Shown: positions 4,562 to 19,090 of the stretch, in pieces
Position numbering within the stretch: position 1 is the stretch's first letter
Layout of the letters: every line of letters starts with the position of its first letter
Assembly (NCBI GenBank): GCA_021818545.1
Contig: JAKATX010000001.1
Span: forward strand, 1-47,060
Length of the DNA: 47,060 nucleotides
From: Microcaldota archaeon
Lineage (GTDB): Archaea; Micrarchaeota; Micrarchaeia; Micrarchaeales; Micrarchaeaceae
Direction: 5' to 3'
Made by a program: the position numbers and the translations under genes
The notes under the pieces: model-generated
Databases searched by the model: none
What the model saw: only the letters and a program-made list of their open reading frames with translations
What the model was told of the DNA's origin: nothing

Positions 4562-5683
4562 TCAGAGGTTTACGTCTATCTGCAACTGCTCCTTGAGCTC
4601 CCTGTACCTGTTCCTTATCGTAACCTCAGTGACGCCAGCCACATCGGCCACCTCCTTCTGCGTCCTGCGCTCGCCAGCAAGTGCACCTGCTATGTAAACG
4701 GCAGCTGCGCTTACGCCAGTCGGGCTCCTGCCGGATACAAGGCCTTTCTTCATCGCTTCTTTGAGCAGTTCAATTGCCTTCTCCTGCGCCTCGCCGCTAA
4801 GCTTCAACGCGCTGACGTATCTCGGCACGTAGCTTATCGGATCCGTGAGCGGTATCTTCAGGCTGAGCTCGTGGGATATGACCCTGTAGGCCCTACCTAT
4901 TTCCTTCTTCGGAAGCCCAGATATGTTGGCGATCTCGTCAAGAGTCCTAGGCATCCCTGCCTCCCTGCAAGCCGCATATATGACTGCCTGCACCACTGTC
5001 TCTATCGGTCTTCCCCTTATCAGGTTGTTCTGCACACACTTCCTGTACAGCAATGCGGCGCTTTCCCTTATGTTGTCCGGCAAACCCAGGTAACTTGATA
5101 CCCTGTTCAGCTCGGGCAATGCAATTAGATAGTTCCTCTCGCTTGAACTCGCTATGCTGGCCCTCTTGTGCCACTTCCTCATCCTATACAATTGTGCCTG
5201 CCGCTTGGATGGTATCCTTACGCCCCTGATGTCCTTATTGTAAAGATCTATCTCGGTCACGAGGCCGCGATTTGGCTTTGTAAACTTTATTGGAGCGCCG
5301 GTCCTGGCCCTTGCGTTCCTCTGATCCGCATCAAAAGCACGCCATTCCGGCCCCGTATCCGTAACGTTCTCTTCTATTACCAGTCCGCAGCCGTTGCAAA
5401 CGAGCTCTCCCCTCTCGTTGTCGAACACGAGGTTCGTGCTTGCACAGCTCGGGCATTTCTTTACCTGTTCCTGGACGCTAGGGGCGCTGGCTTCCCTGAC
5501 CTGGAAATTGGGCCTGGCCACGCTCATCATAGGGGCCTCCCTCTCTATCGGGGCAACGGGCCTCTCTATGTCCATGCTTACCTTGCTCTCTTCAACGCTC
5601 TTGACTGTAACATGCTTCTTAGCGCTCTTTTTGGCTGCGCCTGCATTATTTTGTGATTTTTTGACGTTTGATTTTACCTTCAT
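4562..5683 (-). CDS. tfb: Transcription initiation factor B (TFB) with long N-terminal extension
   Basis: TFB bridges TBP-bound promoter DNA and RNA polymerase. The zinc ribbon (CPSCASTNLVF...CNGCGLV) is followed by the B-reader/linker (EWRAFDADQRNARARTGAP) and two cyclin-like repeats, ending in a recognition helix region VTIRNRYRELKEQL. An Ala/Lys/Ser-rich stretch of about 75 residues precedes the zinc ribbon, whereas most archaeal TFBs start within about 10 residues of it. The open frame extends to 5713. I chose the ATG at 5683 because GGGTGA sits just upstream as a Shine-Dalgarno; ATG at 5695 is also possible. A TATA-like element at 5738-5746 predicts transcription near 5716, compatible with all three. 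The stop is 10 bp before the small secreted protein gene. Confidence 0.93.
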   Translation of the reverse strand: MKVKSNVKKSQNNAGAAKKSAKKHVTVKSVEESKVSMDIERPVAPIEREAPMMSVARPNFQVREASAPSVQEQVKKCPSCASTNLVFDNERGELVCNGCGLVIEENVTDTGPEWRAFDADQRNARARTGAPIKFTKPNRGLVTEIDLYNKDIRGVRIPSKRQAQLYRMRKWHKRASIASSSERNYLIALPELNRVSSYLGLPDNIRESAALLYRKCVQNNLIRGRPIETVVQAVIYAACREAGMPRTLDEIANISGLPKKEIGRAYRVISHELSLKIPLTDPISYVPRYVSALKLSGEAQEKAIELLKEAMKKGLVSGRSPTGVSAAAVYIAGALAGERRTQKEVADVAGVTEVTIRNRYRELKEQLQIDVNL

Positions 5684-5737
5684 TTTTTCACCCATATATA
5701 AGCATAAAAGCATAAGCCCCTAGAAAAGAGAAAAAAG

Positions 5738-5746: not shown

Positions 5747-6026
5747 CTTTCTAGAATGAGCATTATTTTTATGACCGTCCAAATATATAAATCTTTCGGT
5801 AAATTCAGGATTGAAACTGCGTGTTTTACGTCGATAATCATTATTAATTCCAAAATAATGAAATATTGTTATTGGAGTTATTGGAACGACTGCCGTAATC
5901 TGCAATTTTACTTGAATTATTTTGCATAGTAGAGCAAAATTTATCTGAAATCTGGAAAGCTTTATAGTGTTTGCCGCCTAGATATCAAGATGTTTTATAC
6001 CTGCGGATAATTCTAAGCCACAAGGT
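5747..6026. other. Gene-free A+T-rich region upstream of TFB and tRNA-Glu
   Basis: No coding frame is convincing here. The stretch is strongly A+T rich and contains the TATA box of tRNA-Glu (ttttata, 5993-5999) and a perfect 7-bp inverted repeat, ATTTTGC (5919-5925) and GCAAAAT (5934-5940), separated by 8 nt. The inverted repeat could be an operator or the end of a transcript, but nothing identifies a ligand. Confidence 0.4.
5993..5999 (+). promoter_or_regulatory. TATA box of tRNA-Glu
   Basis: The sequence ttttata is centred about 31 nt before the mature tRNA 5' end, the usual archaeal spacing for a transcript with a short leader. Confidence 0.5.
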
Positions 6027-6101
6027 GCTCCTATCGTCTAGTCCGGCCAAGGACGCGGGGCTTTCAACCCTGCAACTCGGGTTCAAATCCCGATGGGAGC
6101 A
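6027..6101 (+). tRNA. tRNA-Glu (anticodon UUC)
   Basis: The acceptor stem GCTCCTA pairs with TGGGAGC (one G-U), and the discriminator is A at 6101. The anticodon stem CGGGG/CCCTG closes the loop CTTTCAA, giving anticodon UUC. The T arm CTCGG-GTTCAAAT-CCCGA has the standard TTCAAAT loop. There is no intron and no encoded CCA. The last 10 bases are repeated at 6688-6697 on the far side of the next gene, suggesting the tRNA may have served as an integration site. Confidence 0.95.
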
Positions 6102-6129
6102 AATCATCGACAAATTGACGTAAAAATCA

Positions 6130-6654
6130 GTGTTGGATATGGAATGGAATTATTATTTTGAACGTATAAACAAAAACACTATCCAAAGATATGATATAAC
6201 GCCATTGTTTGAAAATCCGGAGGTCTTCTCAAATTTGATTGAAGATATGCTTAAATCGTTTAAAAATACCGATTTCGATAAGATTGTTGGCATTGACGCG
6301 CTTGGATTCATTTTGGCAGGCGCATTGGCCTTAAAGACGAAGAAGCCGCTCATTGTTGCCAGAAAAGAGGGGAAGCTGCCATCAAAACCTGAAAACGTGT
6401 TGAAAGTCAAATTCACGGATTATACCGAAACAGAAAAAGCTTTTGAAATGAATAAAGGCGCTATAGAAAAAGGGGATAAGGTATTGATTGTTGATGAATG
6501 GATTGAAACTGGAGGTCAGGTTAAGGCAGCAATTGAACTAGTTGAACGACAGGGCGGCGAGGTTGTAGGCATTACAACGCTGGGTGCAGAAAAAAACCAT
6601 AAAACTAAAGTACTATTTGACAAATACAGATGTAGGCCAATCCAGGTGCTATGA
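6130..6654 (+). CDS. Adenine/purine phosphoribosyltransferase-like protein
   Basis: This 174-residue type I phosphoribosyltransferase carries the PRPP-binding loop VLIVDEWIETGGQVKAAIEL at about residues 116-135, and an upstream core strand DKIVGIDALGFILAGALAL that matches the APRT family. The expected reaction is base plus PRPP to nucleotide plus pyrophosphate, in purine salvage; the substrate cannot be told from sequence. The ATG at 6139 (MEWNYYF) is a likely alternative to the TTG at 6130. Codon choice is clearly more A+T rich than in the flanking genes. The gene sits alone between tRNA-Glu and a degenerate copy of that tRNA's 3' end, so horizontal acquisition is plausible. Confidence 0.82.
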   Translation: MLDMEWNYYFERINKNTIQRYDITPLFENPEVFSNLIEDMLKSFKNTDFDKIVGIDALGFILAGALALKTKKPLIVARKEGKLPSKPENVLKVKFTDYTETEKAFEMNKGAIEKGDKVLIVDEWIETGGQVKAAIELVERQGGEVVGITTLGAEKNHKTKVLFDKYRCRPIQVL

Positions 6655-6687
6655 ATCTAGATGGCACATAACAATATTGCAACTTCG

Positions 6688-6697
6688 GATGGGAGCA
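6688..6697 (+). repeat. Partial copy of the tRNA-Glu 3' end (att-like)
   Basis: GATGGGAGCA is identical to 6092-6101, the last ten bases of tRNA-Glu. The bases just upstream (TGCAACTTCG, 6678-6687) also resemble tRNA bases 6071-6079, as if the T loop had been deleted. It flanks the A+T-rich phosphoribosyltransferase gene on the side opposite the tRNA. Confidence 0.5.
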
Positions 6698-6788: not shown

Positions 6789-8021
6789 TTGCGCCTTTTT
6801 GTCATGCGGCCATATATGGATGATTCGATTATGGTACCCGAAATGTCTGAGAAGGCTCGCGCGCTTGCGTTTACTTCCATAGGCCACTTCGCCAATGACG
6901 GCGTCTTCCTGCTTTTCACTTTGCTGATAGTATATTATAACGGAGTTGGAGTAAGCGTGACGCTGCTGGGCACGCTCGCAATAGTGTACAACATAATAGA
7001 CGGGGCGACTGCGCCGAAGATAGGGGCCTTCGTTGGCAGGAGCGACAAGGCTGTGTACATGTCCCTCGGCATAGCGCTTGAGGGCATCGCGATAGCCGCA
7101 TTCGCCGCATCTTTTGCAGTGGGTGCGTACATGTACTGGCTGCTTATAGCAGGGATAGTTCTGCTAGGAGTGGGCCAGGCCTTCTATCACCCCATAGGCA
7201 GCTCTGTGCTCAGGCACGTATACGGAGATAAGGCGCCTTCGGCAATGGGGATAAACGGATCCGTGGGCAGCGTTGGCAGGGCCCTGTTCCCTTCATTGAT
7301 AACGGTCGCCGTGGTTGCATGGGGCGTATCAATAGGGCTAGGATCGATGGCATTGATAATGTTCGCTCTTGCGGTAATACTGTTCTTCGGATTAAGGGTG
7401 TTCGAGCACAGCAGTTACATCGTGAAGCACGGCAAGCCCGAAAAGAGCATGGACTATGCAACAACGCGTAAGGTCCATTCACACTTCATAAGCACGTTGA
7501 CCTCCATAACACTGCTTAAATCAATGTTCATGGCAGGCACCACGATATTCATAGGCGCATACATAAACAGCATGTTTCACTCGACAGTCATAGTCGGTAT
7601 ATTTCTTACGCTCAGCTTCCTGCCAGCGATACTTGGTCAACTTGTCTTCGGCAAGGTGACAGAGAGAATGGGAGGCAGATACGCGATAACTATGACGACC
7701 GCTTCGCTGGTACCCATATTCGCAATATTCATGCTCACGAACTATCTGCCATTCCTGATATTGACTTACTCTGCATACGCATTCTTCGCGTACACTGGCT
7801 TCCCGGTGATACTTGGATACATAGGTCAGGTCATACCAGAAAGACACATGACCGCGATAGGCGCGCGCATATGGGGCATAGGCACTGTGCTTGGAGGCGC
7901 CGCAGGCATAGCAGCGGCAACGGCACTGCTGGATATGGGCTTGAGCATGCAGCAGATGCTGTGGTCGATGATTATATTCGGAATAATTGCCACTGCGCTT
8001 TTGCCGAGACTGAAGCGGTGA
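6789..8021 (+). CDS. Major facilitator superfamily transporter
   Basis: This 410-residue polytopic protein has about 12 hydrophobic helices. The first helix begins near ALAFTSIGHFANDGVFLLF and the fourth contains GVGQAFYHPIGSSVL, which resembles the GxxFYHP signature of fosmidomycin-resistance-like and other drug-efflux MFS members. The central basic loop (EHSSYIVKHGKPEKSMDYATTRK) divides the two six-helix halves. The substrate is unknown; export of a small molecule is the best guess. The frame opens with TTG at 6789; ATG at 6804 (MRPYMDDS) and ATG at 6831 are alternatives. The gene stands alone, downstream of the phosphoribosyltransferase and separated from it by 134 bp that hold the att-like repeat. 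Confidence 0.85.
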   Translation: MRLFVMRPYMDDSIMVPEMSEKARALAFTSIGHFANDGVFLLFTLLIVYYNGVGVSVTLLGTLAIVYNIIDGATAPKIGAFVGRSDKAVYMSLGIALEGIAIAAFAASFAVGAYMYWLLIAGIVLLGVGQAFYHPIGSSVLRHVYGDKAPSAMGINGSVGSVGRALFPSLITVAVVAWGVSIGLGSMALIMFALAVILFFGLRVFEHSSYIVKHGKPEKSMDYATTRKVHSHFISTLTSITLLKSMFMAGTTIFIGAYINSMFHSTVIVGIFLTLSFLPAILGQLVFGKVTERMGGRYAITMTTASLVPIFAIFMLTNYLPFLILTYSAYAFFAYTGFPVILGYIGQVIPERHMTAIGARIWGIGTVLGGAAGIAAATALLDMGLSMQQMLWSMIIFGIIATALLPRLKR

Positions 8022-10015: not shown

Positions 10016-11527
10016 CTAAGTCGACGCCGGCGGCGATCCCGAATACTGATATACAAGAGTCTGGCCTGCCCCACCATTACCACCATCGACAGGAATGCCG
10101 TTGCTGGTATAAATACAACCTCCGAAAGAGCTGCAGTTGCCTCCACCCTGGCCGCCGATTGAATTGTAAGTGCCTGCAGTGTATGCGTAATTATAGACAA
10201 GCATTATAGTGCCGCTGCCGCCGCCCCCACCTGCCCCTCCATTGTACGTACCTGCGCTGCCGCCTACTGTATTTATTGTGCCTGCGTTTAGAGTGACCGC
10301 TTCTACAAATACGCCATAAGCATCATCTGCGCCTCCTGCTGGTGACGTACCAGCTACGCTTCCGCCGCCTCCGCCTCCTTCTAAGCAACTCTGCATACCA
10401 TTGTTGTAACATGTCTGCACAAGCAAAGCTGTCATAATAGGCGCGGCTGGGGTTGAGCCCGGTGCGCCCGGATCATTGCATGTCTGCATAAGGCCCCCTT
10501 GAGCGAGTGTGTTCCCACCTGCCCCGCTATTATCAGACCCGCTGCACCACCATTGACTACCACTGCCTCCAGAGCCCCCATATGATGACGGGTGTGAGAC
10601 CCCTGGACTTGCGGTGCATTGCTGACACGCAGCGCCACCAGTACCCGGGTCTGTGCCTGAATTTATGGCGCCACTATTAGTGAACACCGCACCTGAGACG
10701 AGAACATAGCCGTCAGTTGTCAACGTGACCGAGCTATCTATTGTTATGCTACCCTGCGTGATTATGTTACCGGACAGCGTGCCTCCTGTATCGAACACTA
10801 TGTTGCAACCTCCGGTGTAACCGGTATAAGGATCGGTCGGGCCGGAGCACGATATCGTGCTGGTGGTAGAAGTTGTAGTTGATGTAGTAGTGGATGAAGT
10901 GGAGGTGGTGGATGTCGACGTAGTGGAACTTGATGTAGTCGAAGTAGTTATCGATGACGAACCCGTGAAAGCGCTCGCACCAGAGAATTTCGTGTTGATG
11001 GTGCCTATCCTCGTGTAAGAGGTCGGCGCACCGCAGCCGGGGACAGTGCAGTATCCCAGCCATACGTATGCAGTCAAAGGCTGTCCCACCAGAACGTTAG
11101 CTGTCGGTATGCCGCCTGCATCAGTTTTCATGAAGTTTACTGTCGCTGTCTGCCCCGGCGTCAATGCGCCTATCGATATCATGTTAGCGACAAACGACAT
11201 GTTATCCGGCAGCCCGTTGCTATCGAGATGCTCTGAGGTAGACGCGACAAACACCCAATCCCCATAATAGTACTGCCCTGACTCCTGCCCTACAGTAAGG
11301 ACTATTCCGTTGGGAGTGTAAGAAGGATTGGAGCATATGAAACCGGTCTGCGGCATGCAGCCTTCGGGCAGGTTGGATGACGATTGACCGAACAGGCCGA
11401 GAGCAAAGAGCAGGGCAGCCACGATCGCAATGACCAATATGGCCCACCCGTAAGTCATCAGGTACTCCATCGCTGACTGGGCACTTTTCTTGCCAGTAAA
11501 GTCAGCGGATTTGAATCTAAATCGCAT
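10016..11527 (-). CDS. Type IV pilin-like protein with Gly-rich C-terminal domain
   Basis: The 503-residue product has the class III signal KKSA|QSAMEYLMTYGWAILVIAI, then a Cys-containing domain (EGCMPQTGFICSNPSY), a Ser/Thr linker of TSTT-type repeats (about residues 193-227), and a C-terminal Gly-rich region (GGGGGGSVAG, GGAGGGGGSG, GGQGGGN) that resembles a β-rich or collagen-like adhesive shaft. This C-terminal domain is unrelated to the DUF2341 domains of its neighbours. Its first 46 codons, start and promoter lie inside the 549-bp direct repeat copy A and recur exactly in the short pilin gene at 12667. A TATA box at 11558-11569 predicts a leader of about 10 nt. It is first in an operon with the pilin at 8404. 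Confidence 0.87.
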   Translation of the reverse strand: MRFRFKSADFTGKKSAQSAMEYLMTYGWAILVIAIVAALLFALGLFGQSSSNLPEGCMPQTGFICSNPSYTPNGIVLTVGQESGQYYYGDWVFVASTSEHLDSNGLPDNMSFVANMISIGALTPGQTATVNFMKTDAGGIPTANVLVGQPLTAYVWLGYCTVPGCGAPTSYTRIGTINTKFSGASAFTGSSSITTSTTSSSTTSTSTTSTSSTTTSTTTSTTSTISCSGPTDPYTGYTGGCNIVFDTGGTLSGNIITQGSITIDSSVTLTTDGYVLVSGAVFTNSGAINSGTDPGTGGAACQQCTASPGVSHPSSYGGSGGSGSQWWCSGSDNSGAGGNTLAQGGLMQTCNDPGAPGSTPAAPIMTALLVQTCYNNGMQSCLEGGGGGGSVAGTSPAGGADDAYGVFVEAVTLNAGTINTVGGSAGTYNGGAGGGGGSGTIMLVYNYAYTAGTYNSIGGQGGGNCSSFGGCIYTSNGIPVDGGNGGAGQTLVYQYSGSPPAST

Positions 11528-11936
11528 TGAAAAACATTAGTAGTATGTCAGAAAGGATTTAATATAAATGTCTTTGTTAGAGAACTCACGCCTACTGCCC
11601 CTGCCATATTAGCAGTAGCGTTATTCTTTTGCGCCGTGCTTTAGGAGCAGTGTCTCTATCTCGATGTAACCGCTCTTTCGTGCCAGTTTTAACGCGGTAT
11701 CCCCATCCTTATCCTTGACCAGTGGATCCGCGCCCCTTTTAAGAAGCAGATTGACTATTTTTGCATTGCCTGTTGCTATACCGTAAGTGAGGACCGTCTG
11801 GTCGCGTATGGTGCATGCCTTAACGTCGGCACCCTTGTCCAGCAGCTCTTCGACTAAGCCGATATCATTTGAGCGGGCAGCGTACATCAAAGCAGTAGTC
11901 CCTATTTCGGTCTTGGCGTTTACGTTGGCCCCCTTG
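11388..11936. repeat. 549-bp perfect direct repeat, copy A
   Basis: This is identical, base for base as far as I can read, to 12818-13366 (offset 1430). It spans the first 46 codons of the pilin at 10016-11527, its TATA box, the intergenic region, and the last ~105 codons of the ankyrin protein at 11621-12082. Identity stops abruptly at both ends: 11387 differs from 12817 and 11937 differs from 13367. Confidence 0.95.
11558..11569 (-). promoter_or_regulatory. TATA box of the 503-aa pilin gene
   Basis: The minus strand reads TTTATATTAAAT, centred about 36 nt before the ATG at 11527, which gives a leader of roughly 10 nt. It is duplicated at 12988-12999 inside repeat copy B. Confidence 0.55.
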
Positions 11937-12082
11937 ACCTCCGCTTTAAAAGCATCCACCTCCTCCAGGCTTTTGAATGAGATCGGCAAATCCGCCCTAC
12001 CGTGCTCATCTATTGTTATCCCATAAAGGGTTTTCCCCTCAACCAGCTTGAGAGAAGCCGGTCTTTCTGTTATATAAGACAT
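11621..12082 (-). CDS. Ankyrin-repeat protein, chimeric N terminus
   Basis: This 153-residue protein has about three ankyrin repeats in residues 50-153 (GANVNAKTEIGTTALMYAARS, GADVKACTIRDQTVLTYGIAT, GADPLVKDKDGDTALKLARKS). The first ~49 residues (MSYITERPASLKLVEGKTLYG...FKSLEEVDAFKAEVK) are not ankyrin sequence. The switch falls exactly at the right edge of repeat copy A, so this gene looks like a fusion created by recombination: its ankyrin part is identical to that of 13051-13419, which continues upstream with normal ankyrin sequence. Ankyrin repeats bind proteins; the partner is unknown. It is probably expressed, since GGTG lies shortly before the ATG at 12082. Confidence 0.8.
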   Translation of the reverse strand: MSYITERPASLKLVEGKTLYGITIDEHGRADLPISFKSLEEVDAFKAEVKGANVNAKTEIGTTALMYAARSNDIGLVEELLDKGADVKACTIRDQTVLTYGIATGNAKIVNLLLKRGADPLVKDKDGDTALKLARKSGYIEIETLLLKHGAKE

Positions 12083-12212
12083 TTTAACACCAGTAAATCT
12101 TTCTTTTGCTATATTTAATCATTAGTCTTATTCTGTTTGACTGCTAATCAGTGAACTATGCCTGTTGAATATTTTGGAAGGACAGGTATACAAGGAGCTA
12201 TCAAAAAGTAGA

Positions 12213-12662
12213 CTAGACGGTGCTACGCTTTAAAATCTGCTTAGGCCTTGTTTTGATATAGTATCCGAAACGTCTTGTTTTTCTATAAGGCCTAAAACCT
12301 AGCGAATGATAGAATCTCATGGCCCGCTTATCCCTAGAGGACACACCAGAATATATCCAAGGCGCTTTTTGAGCAATCGCCATAGATGCAATTTTATGCA
12401 TAAGTGTTGTTCCTATACCATTTCCTGGCTTGCTAGTGCAGATGAAGAGTATTGTGATGCTATTTGATCTGTTATGTCTGAAATTTGCCAGGCCATCAAT
12501 TCCTTTATTTGACCTATGTACCAAGCATGTTGTTTTACTGAGTTCTTCGGCTATAACGTTTTTCTCCATTTTTCCTTGCGGTATTTCCATGGCGAGCCCA
12601 TTTTGGAATAGCGTTACCGCCTCTTCCATGTCACTAGGTTTGAGTTTTTCTAGTTTCTCCAT
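12213..12662 (-). CDS. GNAT-family N-acetyltransferase
   Basis: The 149-residue protein matches the GNAT fold: the acetyl-CoA pyrophosphate loop is KPGNGIGTTLMHKIASMA (about residues 78-95), and the late motif SSRDKRAMRFYHSLGFRPY is the usual motif B. The substrate is unknown; proteins or small amines are both possible. It begins 4 bp after the stop of the short pilin gene at 12667, which implies coupled translation. It lies in the unique 881-bp segment between the two 549-bp repeats and is A+T richer than housekeeping genes here, so it appears to have arrived with that segment. Confidence 0.83.
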   Translation of the reverse strand: MEKLEKLKPSDMEEAVTLFQNGLAMEIPQGKMEKNVIAEELSKTTCLVHRSNKGIDGLANFRHNRSNSITILFICTSKPGNGIGTTLMHKIASMAIAQKAPWIYSGVSSRDKRAMRFYHSLGFRPYRKTRRFGYYIKTRPKQILKRSTV

Positions 12663-12666
12663 AGAG

Positions 12667-12957
12667 TCACTTGCCAGAAGCGGCAGTAGCTTGTGGCTGT
12701 TGGGGCTGTGGATTCGGATTGTAGACTAGCTCGCCGGGCCGGTATATTCTATCAAGCAGCAGTACGTTGTATGACAGTCCTGTTTTTGTGTCCAGAGCTA
12801 TGTGCCTTATCTCATTGCCGAACAGGCCGAGAGCAAAGAGCAGGGCAGCCACGATCGCAATGACCAATATGGCCCACCCGTAAGTCATCAGGTACTCCAT
12901 CGCTGACTGGGCACTTTTCTTGCCAGTAAAGTCAGCGGATTTGAATCTAAATCGCAT
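12667..12957 (-). CDS. Very short pilin with class III signal and Pro/Gln-rich tail
   Basis: Residues 1-46 (through ALGLFG) are identical to the pilin at 10016-11527 because both starts lie in the 549-bp repeat. After the repeat edge the sequence changes to NEIRHIALDTKTGLSYNVLL and a tail NPNPQPQQPQATAASGK, for 96 residues in all. Processing between A and Q would leave a mature pilin of about 79 residues, a reasonable size for a minor type IV pilin, so it may be functional rather than a fragment. It has its own promoter copy at 12988-12999 and is followed after 4 bp by the GNAT gene. Alternatively it is a truncated by-product of recombination. Confidence 0.7.
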   Translation of the reverse strand: MRFRFKSADFTGKKSAQSAMEYLMTYGWAILVIAIVAALLFALGLFGNEIRHIALDTKTGLSYNVLLLDRIYRPGELVYNPNPQPQQPQATAASGK

Positions 12958-13366
12958 TGAAAAACATTAGTAGTATGTCAGAAAGGATTTAATATAAATG
13001 TCTTTGTTAGAGAACTCACGCCTACTGCCCCTGCCATATTAGCAGTAGCGTTATTCTTTTGCGCCGTGCTTTAGGAGCAGTGTCTCTATCTCGATGTAAC
13101 CGCTCTTTCGTGCCAGTTTTAACGCGGTATCCCCATCCTTATCCTTGACCAGTGGATCCGCGCCCCTTTTAAGAAGCAGATTGACTATTTTTGCATTGCC
13201 TGTTGCTATACCGTAAGTGAGGACCGTCTGGTCGCGTATGGTGCATGCCTTAACGTCGGCACCCTTGTCCAGCAGCTCTTCGACTAAGCCGATATCATTT
13301 GAGCGGGCAGCGTACATCAAAGCAGTAGTCCCTATTTCGGTCTTGGCGTTTACGTTGGCCCCCTTG
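12818..13366. repeat. 549-bp perfect direct repeat, copy B
   Basis: This copy is identical to 11388-11936. It contains the start of the short pilin at 12667, its TATA box (12988-12999) and the last ~105 codons of the ankyrin protein at 13051. On its right side the ankyrin reading frame continues naturally, so this side may preserve the ancestral ankyrin junction, while copy A preserves the long pilin. Confidence 0.95.
12988..12999 (-). promoter_or_regulatory. TATA box of the short pilin gene
   Basis: Exact copy of the promoter element at 11558-11569, carried in repeat copy B. Confidence 0.5.
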
Positions 13367-13419
13367 CCTATTAGCTTCCTTACCTCTTCGGCATTCCCCA
13401 TTTTTGCTGCGGTCAACAT
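13051..13419 (-). CDS. Ankyrin-repeat protein
   Basis: The 122-residue protein consists of about three and a half ankyrin repeats, beginning MLTAAKMGNAEEVRKLIGKGANVNA. From residue 18 onward it is identical to the C-terminal part of the protein at 11621-12082, because that part lies in the 549-bp repeat. Upstream of the ATG at 13419 the frame stays open for 19 codons (ending ENESLNSL) and reads like natural ankyrin sequence, but no ATG, GTG or TTG is present before the stop. Either the ATG at 13419 is the true start or the gene has lost its 5' end. Its function is protein binding, partner unknown. Confidence 0.75.
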   Translation of the reverse strand: MLTAAKMGNAEEVRKLIGKGANVNAKTEIGTTALMYAARSNDIGLVEELLDKGADVKACTIRDQTVLTYGIATGNAKIVNLLLKRGADPLVKDKDGDTALKLARKSGYIEIETLLLKHGAKE

Positions 13420-18987: not shown

Positions 18988-19090
18988 TGGGCCCGGAGAG
19001 ATTTGAACTCTCGGCCTCCCGATTTCTGCAGTAAAGCTTCATTGAAGCTTATATCAGTCGGGCGCTCCAACCAGGCTAAGCTACGAGCCC
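18988..19090 (-). tRNA. tRNA-Ile (anticodon GAU) with intron
   Basis: The acceptor stem GGGCTCG pairs with CGGGCCC and the discriminator is A (complement of 18988). The anticodon stem CCCGA/TCGGG encloses CTGATA plus A with a 28-nt intron after position 37, the canonical archaeal site; the anticodon is GAU. The intron forms an internal hairpin (AAGCTTC with GAAGCTT) and CTG/CAG pairing provides the central helix of a bulge-helix-bulge. The T loop TTCAAAT is standard. CCA is not encoded. A TATA-like AATAAATA (19113-19121, complement) lies in the last codons of the upstream gene. Confidence 0.93.

Follow-up and report, generated by a model that had tools for sequence, protein, structure and literature searches.

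How does a single gene come to lie between an intact tRNA-Glu gene and a short repeat of that tRNA's own 3′ end? The question is raised by positions 6027-6697 of the window, the whole stretch of 47,060 nucleotides analysed here (G000:C13:1-47060, from assembly G000 of 711 kb, whose completeness is put at 60%). The first-pass annotation of this locus read it as the footprint of an integration at the tRNA, followed by loss of the integrase. DPANN archaea have very small genomes and their routes of gene gain are poorly understood. The best explanation is that 6102-6697 is probably an old, decayed cassette, consisting of a promoterless phosphoribosyltransferase gene and a short recombination site that mimics the 3′ end of tRNA-Glu.

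The tRNA-Glu locus and its phosphoribosyltransferase gene

The tRNA-Glu(TTC) gene is placed at 6027-6101 on the plus strand by Rfam and at 6026-6102 by ARAGORN; it is the insertion target of the proposed cassette, and the crossover core would be its last 14 nt. Inspection of the sequence finds TTTATA 33 nt upstream of it (5994-5999, +), a TATA-like box that may act as the promoter of both tRNA and cargo. To the left lies a transcription factor B (TFB) gene (4562-5713, −). To the right, the cargo gene (6139-6654, +) opens with an ATG 37 nt past the tRNA, with an in-frame GTG at 6130, and a search for a single TATA-like pattern between tRNA-Glu and this ATG gave no match. It is followed by the putative decayed 37-nt cassette-end site (6662-6697, +), recognized by a tail match and a profile, and then, outside the proposed cassette, by a gene for an MFS transporter (6789-8021, +). 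The open reading frames of the window include no integrase frame between tRNA-Glu and the repeat.

The window contains two copies of GATGGGAGCA and no more, one at 6092-6101 and the other at 6688-6697, against a chance expectation of 0.18 matches. The ungapped repeat is 18 nt long, with 15 of 18 positions identical (83%) between 6084-6101 and 6680-6697 and the same final base. None of 4000 dinucleotide shuffles of the 1 kb after tRNA-Glu reached this score, and the best match to the tail elsewhere in the window, on both strands, is 14/18; the partial copy of the tRNA 3′ end reported at first pass is thereby confirmed. The same annotation took the wider block for the 3′ part of the tRNA with its T loop deleted. 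As a gapped alignment to the tRNA this reading was rejected, 462 of 1000 shuffles being as good, and since the alignment is no better than shuffles, the reading depends instead on the site family described below.

The gene product is a phosphoribosyltransferase by PF00156, and the nearest NCBIfam models are those of APRT, with scores below their cut-offs. The earlier description of a lone gene of foreign composition holds: GC3 is 0.38 against 0.61-0.66 in five neighbouring genes, and the GC of the frame, about 0.387, is matched or undercut in 4.1% of 1862 windows of equal length. The ordinary APRT of G000 is a separate gene at G000:C7, with 38% identity to the window gene. Matches at E 1e-25 were found in 11 of 295 genomes sampled from the phylum; four of them, all from this genus, carry the clade of the window gene (100, 100, 59 and 56% identity), and the other seven show 42-48% identity. 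The nearest records outside the phylum, from Nanoarchaeota and Woesearchaeota, reach 54-58%. The gene tree, built from 30 rows (row L223 was left out, its frame not having been found), joins the genus copies in one group (89/89, below the star level of the tree tool) beside a Woesearchaeota/Nanoarchaeota group (88/79), both set apart from ordinary APRTs. The phylogeny that the first-pass annotation had proposed as a check thus groups the genus copies, a result that vertical descent also allows.

Three species carry the gene in three places (behind tRNA-Glu in G000, near the MFS ortholog in G003 and near a contig end in G002). Its acquisition probably dates to the genus or earlier, with later movement or rearrangement; vertical descent with rearrangement is an admissible alternative history. 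Its GC is about 0.386 in G000 against 0.53-0.55 in G003 and G002. In G003 the gene and the ortholog of the window's MFS transporter gene are 4.6 kb apart, with neither tRNA-Glu nor the site nearby; tRNA-Asp is the sole tRNA within the 15 kb read around it, and a candidate tRNA-Asp tail ahead of the gene was rejected as weak (E 0.11). G004 is identical to G000 in the phosphoribosyltransferase gene and in 151 bases around tRNA-Glu; at NCBI both are classed under Microcaldota. G001, which is 96% complete, yielded the ordinary APRT alone and no gene of the window type. The G002 copy (L041:16673-17068, at the end of G002:C25) matches over its first 91 residues and then continues as unrelated sequence to the contig end.

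An empty site, the other check proposed earlier, was sought among the relatives, and none was found with this tRNA-Glu flank unchanged and the phosphoribosyltransferase absent; G001 and G002 share the left flank and hold other insertions. The MFS gene directly behind tRNA-Glu was considered as the empty arrangement and dropped, the stretch 3′ of the window repeat having no same-direction match among the loci compared. A close MFS ortholog occurs only in G003 and G004, and the remaining matches are at 41% or below.

Several further features of this genome were recorded. A second tRNA gene (18988-19090, −; 103 nt), probably intron-bearing, is called by Rfam and not by ARAGORN. The stretch 10016-13419 is a local duplication, in which two frames (10016-11527 and 12667-12957) open with an identical pilin-like leader (MRFRFKSADFTGKKSAQSAMEYLMTYGWAI) and two ankyrin-like frames (11621-12082 and 13051-13419) have one identical stretch in common. 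Another contig carries a 64-nt partial copy of tRNA-Glu, 98% identical (G000:C4:26799-26865; L034:9803-9866, minus), with no full tRNA in the surrounding 19 kb.

Insertions behind tRNA-Glu in related genomes

Comparison shows tRNA-Glu to be an insertion hotspot in relatives. Sequence upstream of the tRNA puts 42 loci in one similarity group and the downstream sequence is variable; the TFB left flank is common to G000, G001 and G002, and the sequence after the tRNA differs. The G001 insertion spans about 4.3 kb and includes an integrase, a ParA-like ATPase and a DDE transposase as well as a GIY-YIG-type gene; that of G002 spans about 7.1 kb and includes a restriction gene of the BsuBI/PstI type, a methylase gene, part of an integrase and an IS110 transposase. 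These elements close with partial tRNA copies in direct repeat, of 62 and 58 nt, respectively, and the G001 integrase frame crosses the tRNA tail, which is the split arrangement of the SSV type. Integrase relatives are present in 40 of 60 genomes. Nine genomes hold 24 tyrosine-recombinase (PF00589) matches in total, G000 has five, and the incomplete assemblies G230 and G245 have none.

Some side observations concern these loci. The SSV-type integrase frames of L032, L091, L093 and L099 contain T-arm-like repeats (GGGTTCAAATC) in their 5′ part, putatively extra binding sites. In L124 (G027) the 18-nt tail recurs without mismatch 6.2 kb downstream of the tRNA-Glu gene, and the 30 bases after this copy are those that follow the tRNA. 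Six assemblies end at tRNA-Glu or within about 120 bases of it (G040:C10, G040:C23, G042:C30, G045:C13, G018:C32 and G023:C19); such ends are expected if the tRNA is partly repeated elsewhere, so that counts of cassettes may be too low.

Beside the integrase elements stands a recurring class of segments that lack an integrase and repeatedly hold one or two genes. When the 2.5 kb downstream of each tRNA were searched for the tail, 15/18 or better was reached at 12 of 62 tRNA-Glu loci (six others with less than 1 kb downstream being excluded) and at none of 40 other tRNAs (best 13), which were taken from G021 and G034, two genomes whose own tRNA-Glu loci carry such segments. The reverse complement of the tail gave 0/62 at this threshold (best 14, twice), and at 14/18 the counts are 13/62 and 0/40 (Fisher p 0.0014). 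For the description of contents, L127 was removed from the 12, its match lying inside an open frame on the opposite strand, and L125 (14/18), L119 (13/18) and, from BLAST matches, L145 and L139 were added, giving 15 tail loci. In all 15 the first frame of 80 aa or more has the same orientation as the tRNA, against 23 of 40 loci without a tail (p 0.002), among which L109, with hicBA and no tail found, was kept; seven integrase loci were tallied separately (five co-oriented, two not). GC is below that of the surroundings in 14 of the 15, by 6.0 points on average, against a mean of 3.4 points at 38 loci without a tail (p 0.043), so that the lower GC just behind tRNA-Glu is partly general. The set of tail loci was fixed after their contents had been seen, which makes the orientation and GC tests descriptive, and the loci are not all independent: L115 and L119 are orthologous and three carry hicBA.

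Pfam assigns the tail-locus cargo to HicB/HicA, PIN (VapC-like), AbiEii with a weak AbiEi match, AAA_14/DUF4143 ATPases, HhH-GPD, pyrophosphatase, methyltransferases, serine hydrolase and ArsR-type HTH, and several genes are without a match. One insertion can be traced in G021. A gene that stands immediately after tRNA-Glu in G009 and G034 is separated from the tRNA by hicBA in this genome, and the tail after hicBA runs into the same bases as follow the tRNA in those two genomes. This before-and-after comparison shows hicBA in G021 to be an insertion. Behind the gene common to the three genomes, the tail itself scores 15/18 in G009 and 13/18 in G034 and is barely recognizable in G021, a picture of decay. 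Related hicBA genes stand behind tRNA-Glu in four genomes, with 79-86% DNA identity, and the tail was found in three.

The 37-nt site family and the window repeat

Three right ends with unlike cargo proved similar to one another upstream of the tail (17, 17 and 14 of 23 positions). A 37-nt pattern, with up to three mismatches, occurs at nine places in 7 of 164 genomes of the order, and the reversed pattern at none; six places are behind tRNA-Glu, two behind a partial tRNA-Glu copy and one behind neither. A narrower pattern finds eight places in the same seven genomes, and neither the strict 37-nt pattern nor the narrower one finds a site in G000 or its genus. The consensus is about RRGCAYTTAACTGGAATGCWACWTCCCGATGGGAGCA, and its 3′ half reads like tRNA-Glu from the variable loop onward, minus ten bases of the T arm. 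Among ten aligned sites similarity reaches about 40 nt further upstream; a tRNA origin of these 40 nt was rejected, 106 of 500 shuffles being equally good.

A profile scan of 893 kb, mostly tRNA-Glu regions, returned 14 sites with at least 28 bits, the next best scoring 15.6; 13 of the 14 had built the profile and the G040 site alone is new, and the genome-wide placement comes from the pattern search. The consensus fold of ten sites has four pairs, none changed on both sides, and the folds of five single sites are near those of shuffles (z −1.8 to 0.4), so that no conserved fold was found. Viral contigs searched with exact patterns of the site and of the tRNA tail, and with the gene, gave no match.

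Arrays, taken as at least two sites within 4 kb with small genes between them, exist in four genomes; the window, with one site, has none. The array of G052 holds four sites and reads tRNA, methyltransferase, site, AAA_14 (reversed), site, methyltransferase, site, short frame, site. The other three hold two sites each: G245 reads tRNA, a 230 aa frame, site, YfbR-like HD, site; G140 reads partial tRNA copy, alcohol dehydrogenase, site, NUDIX, site; and G224, whose array is on the other strand from a tRNA-Glu(CTC) about 1 kb off, reads site, HhH-GPD, site. Single sites follow a SnoaL-like gene in G230, HhH-GPD in G016, AAA_14 in G043 and an APH-like kinase in G040, where about 60 nt past the site match the sequence after the intact tRNA-Glu of integrase-element loci. 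The cargo of 37-nt sites thus includes NUDIX, YfbR-like HD, HhH-GPD glycosylase, methyltransferases and AAA_14/DUF4143 ATPases, to which the related tail-repeat loci add hicBA, a PIN (VapC-like) gene and AbiE. The ends of these units can be exact. The HhH-GPD cassettes of G016 and G224, genomes of different families, are 91.3% identical over 941 nt; the homology starts at the 14-nt core, which is tRNA in one and site in the other, and ends in both at the last base of the site, and the flanks do not align.

Set against this family, the right end of the window segment agrees with the three right ends compared above at 13/23, 13/23 and 12/23 positions (p 0.006 and 0.019 each). A profile of 13 sites built without the window copy matches 6664-6697 over model positions 3-37, with 10.6 bits and E 0.027 for 47 kb, at the place the model expects, behind tRNA-Glu and past one co-oriented gene. 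The score is weak beside the 28 bits or more of the 14 strong sites. The tRNA-Glu tail itself scores higher on the site profile (12.4 bits), one of 61 decoy windows outscores the window copy, and the profile hit and the 15/18 tail match are not independent of each other. We infer that the window repeat is a decayed member of the 37-nt site family, the score being weak when taken alone. The window gene appears to represent, in worn form, a set of cassettes with precise ends that mostly hold one gene and are inserted after this tRNA in related archaea.

Proposed mechanism, alternative explanations and known systems

The tRNA is kept whole and the cassette site lies on the right, which implies a crossover within bases common to both. 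A circular cassette would recombine with tRNA-Glu inside the roughly 14 nt that the site shares with the tRNA 3′ end; the crossover would restore the tRNA on the left and leave the cassette's own site on the right. New entries would push earlier insertions downstream, and arrays would then arise through repeated entry at the tRNA. The distance and orientation of the genes suggest that the cargo shares the tRNA promoter and is transcribed from it by read-through. The enzyme would most likely be a tyrosine recombinase acting in trans, perhaps supplied by SSV-type elements at the same tRNA.

The foremost alternative, close to the first-pass view, is that a virus or plasmid with an SSV-type integrase entered at tRNA-Glu and was reduced to one gene and a worn attR. 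Such elements do sit at this tRNA in G001 and G002, each with a partial tRNA copy (62 and 58 nt) at its end, and integrase relatives are common, in 40 of 60 genomes and with five matches in G000 itself. We nevertheless consider this origin unlikely, for right ends behind unrelated cargo share a 37-nt site that differs from the attR of integrase elements, one cassette has identical ends in two hosts and the integrase-free segments repeatedly hold one or two genes. Integration at the tRNA, as first proposed, gains from the hotspot, the footprint recurring in relatives, the hicBA comparison and the foreign GC3, and nothing shows that an integrase was once present here and later lost. Because integrase-free segments recur, one of them with identical exact ends in two hosts, we prefer the word cassette to that of an element that has lost its integrase.

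A less probable account does without insertion: rearrangement would have carried an old resident gene to its present place, and the repeat would be a coincidence. The single tree group of the genus copies would fit, as would the 4.6 kb between the G003 gene and the MFS ortholog, which also counts against the cassette since gene and transporter may be old neighbours; so would the longer gapped tRNA match, which is not significant, and the decoy that outscores the window (1/61). It has to explain, however, a 15/18 repeat that 4000 shuffles never produced, the absence of scores above 13 at 40 other tRNAs and a GC3 of 0.38 amid a stretch of 0.61-0.66. Gene delivery by homologous recombination between scattered partial tRNA-Glu copies, with no site-specific enzyme, is very improbable: partial copies do lie away from full tRNAs, as in the 64 nt at G000:C4:26799-26865, and the incomplete assemblies G230 and G245 lack a PF00589 match, but site and tRNA share only about 14 nt, which is short for homologous recombination, and the 37-nt site is common to unrelated cargo.

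A decayed cassette thus remains the preferred reading, and a broader proposition can be built on it. Micrarchaeota may own a separately arisen, integron-like system of gene capture, with tRNA-Glu as entry point and promoter, mostly single-gene cassettes, a site of 37 nt (perhaps about 77 nt) that imitates the 3′ end of tRNA-Glu minus some of the T arm, and a recombinase acting in trans, the window holding a decayed cassette. We regard this as a tentative proposal, somewhat short of an even chance, and have slightly lowered its standing because no strict-pattern site occurs in the genus and the GC contrast is partly general. If it is true, these archaea would have a concrete route of gene gain, in which a tRNA gene is both the loading dock and the promoter of exchangeable single genes.

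attC sites are built around two boxes, R″ (RYYYAAC) and R′ (GTTRRRY). Of 14 sites in the present family, 12 have RYYYAAC at the same position and only 1 has GTTRRRY, searched from 100 nt before to 60 nt after the site; identity with integron attC was rejected for want of the R′ box. The integron-integrase model, run on 10 of the 24 PF00589 matches from nine genomes, gave a best score of 59 against a cut-off of 265. CIMEs are cis-mobilizable elements, decayed conjugative elements; the window segment, with att-like ends and no integrase, resembles them in this respect, and in G003 and G040 integrase-free segments between att-like repeats stand in tandem with integrase elements as in CIMEs. Unlike CIMEs, the segments hold one or two genes and have a site of their own that is shared across unrelated cargo.

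Integration at archaeal tRNA genes and suicidal integrases have been reviewed (Badel et al. 2021, PMC8371274). Like SSV-type elements, the window segment lies at the 3′ end of tRNA-Glu and has a repeat at the far end, and an SSV-type element with its integrase frame through the tRNA tail is present at the same target in G001; unlike them, the window segment has one gene and neither an integrase nor a split integrase gene, and its repeat is an imperfect one of 18 nt where theirs measure 58-62 nt. Integrated elements of thaumarchaea are reported with short att sites (median 17 bp) and as multigene except for IS-like ones (PMC6563490). Among the literature titles and abstracts searched, none concerned tRNA-bounded single-gene cassettes in DPANN archaea.

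IntI and attC figure in the published account of archaeal integrons and CALINs (Ghaly et al. 2022, PMC9668308), whose main text has no words beginning with tRNA or Micrarchae. As described there, integrons and CALINs share with the present loci arrays of mostly single, mostly co-oriented genes with a repeated site between them, a fixed entry point with a promoter at one end (the promoter being putative here) and accessory cargo. They differ from these loci, whose entry point is formed by a tRNA gene and whose sites resemble the 3′ end of a tRNA, with neither an attC R′ box at the junction nor a conserved fold. The cassette family therefore appears to have a layout like that of bacterial integron cassettes and a different joining site, and, if the proposal is true, it would represent a second way of arriving at integron-like cassette arrays.
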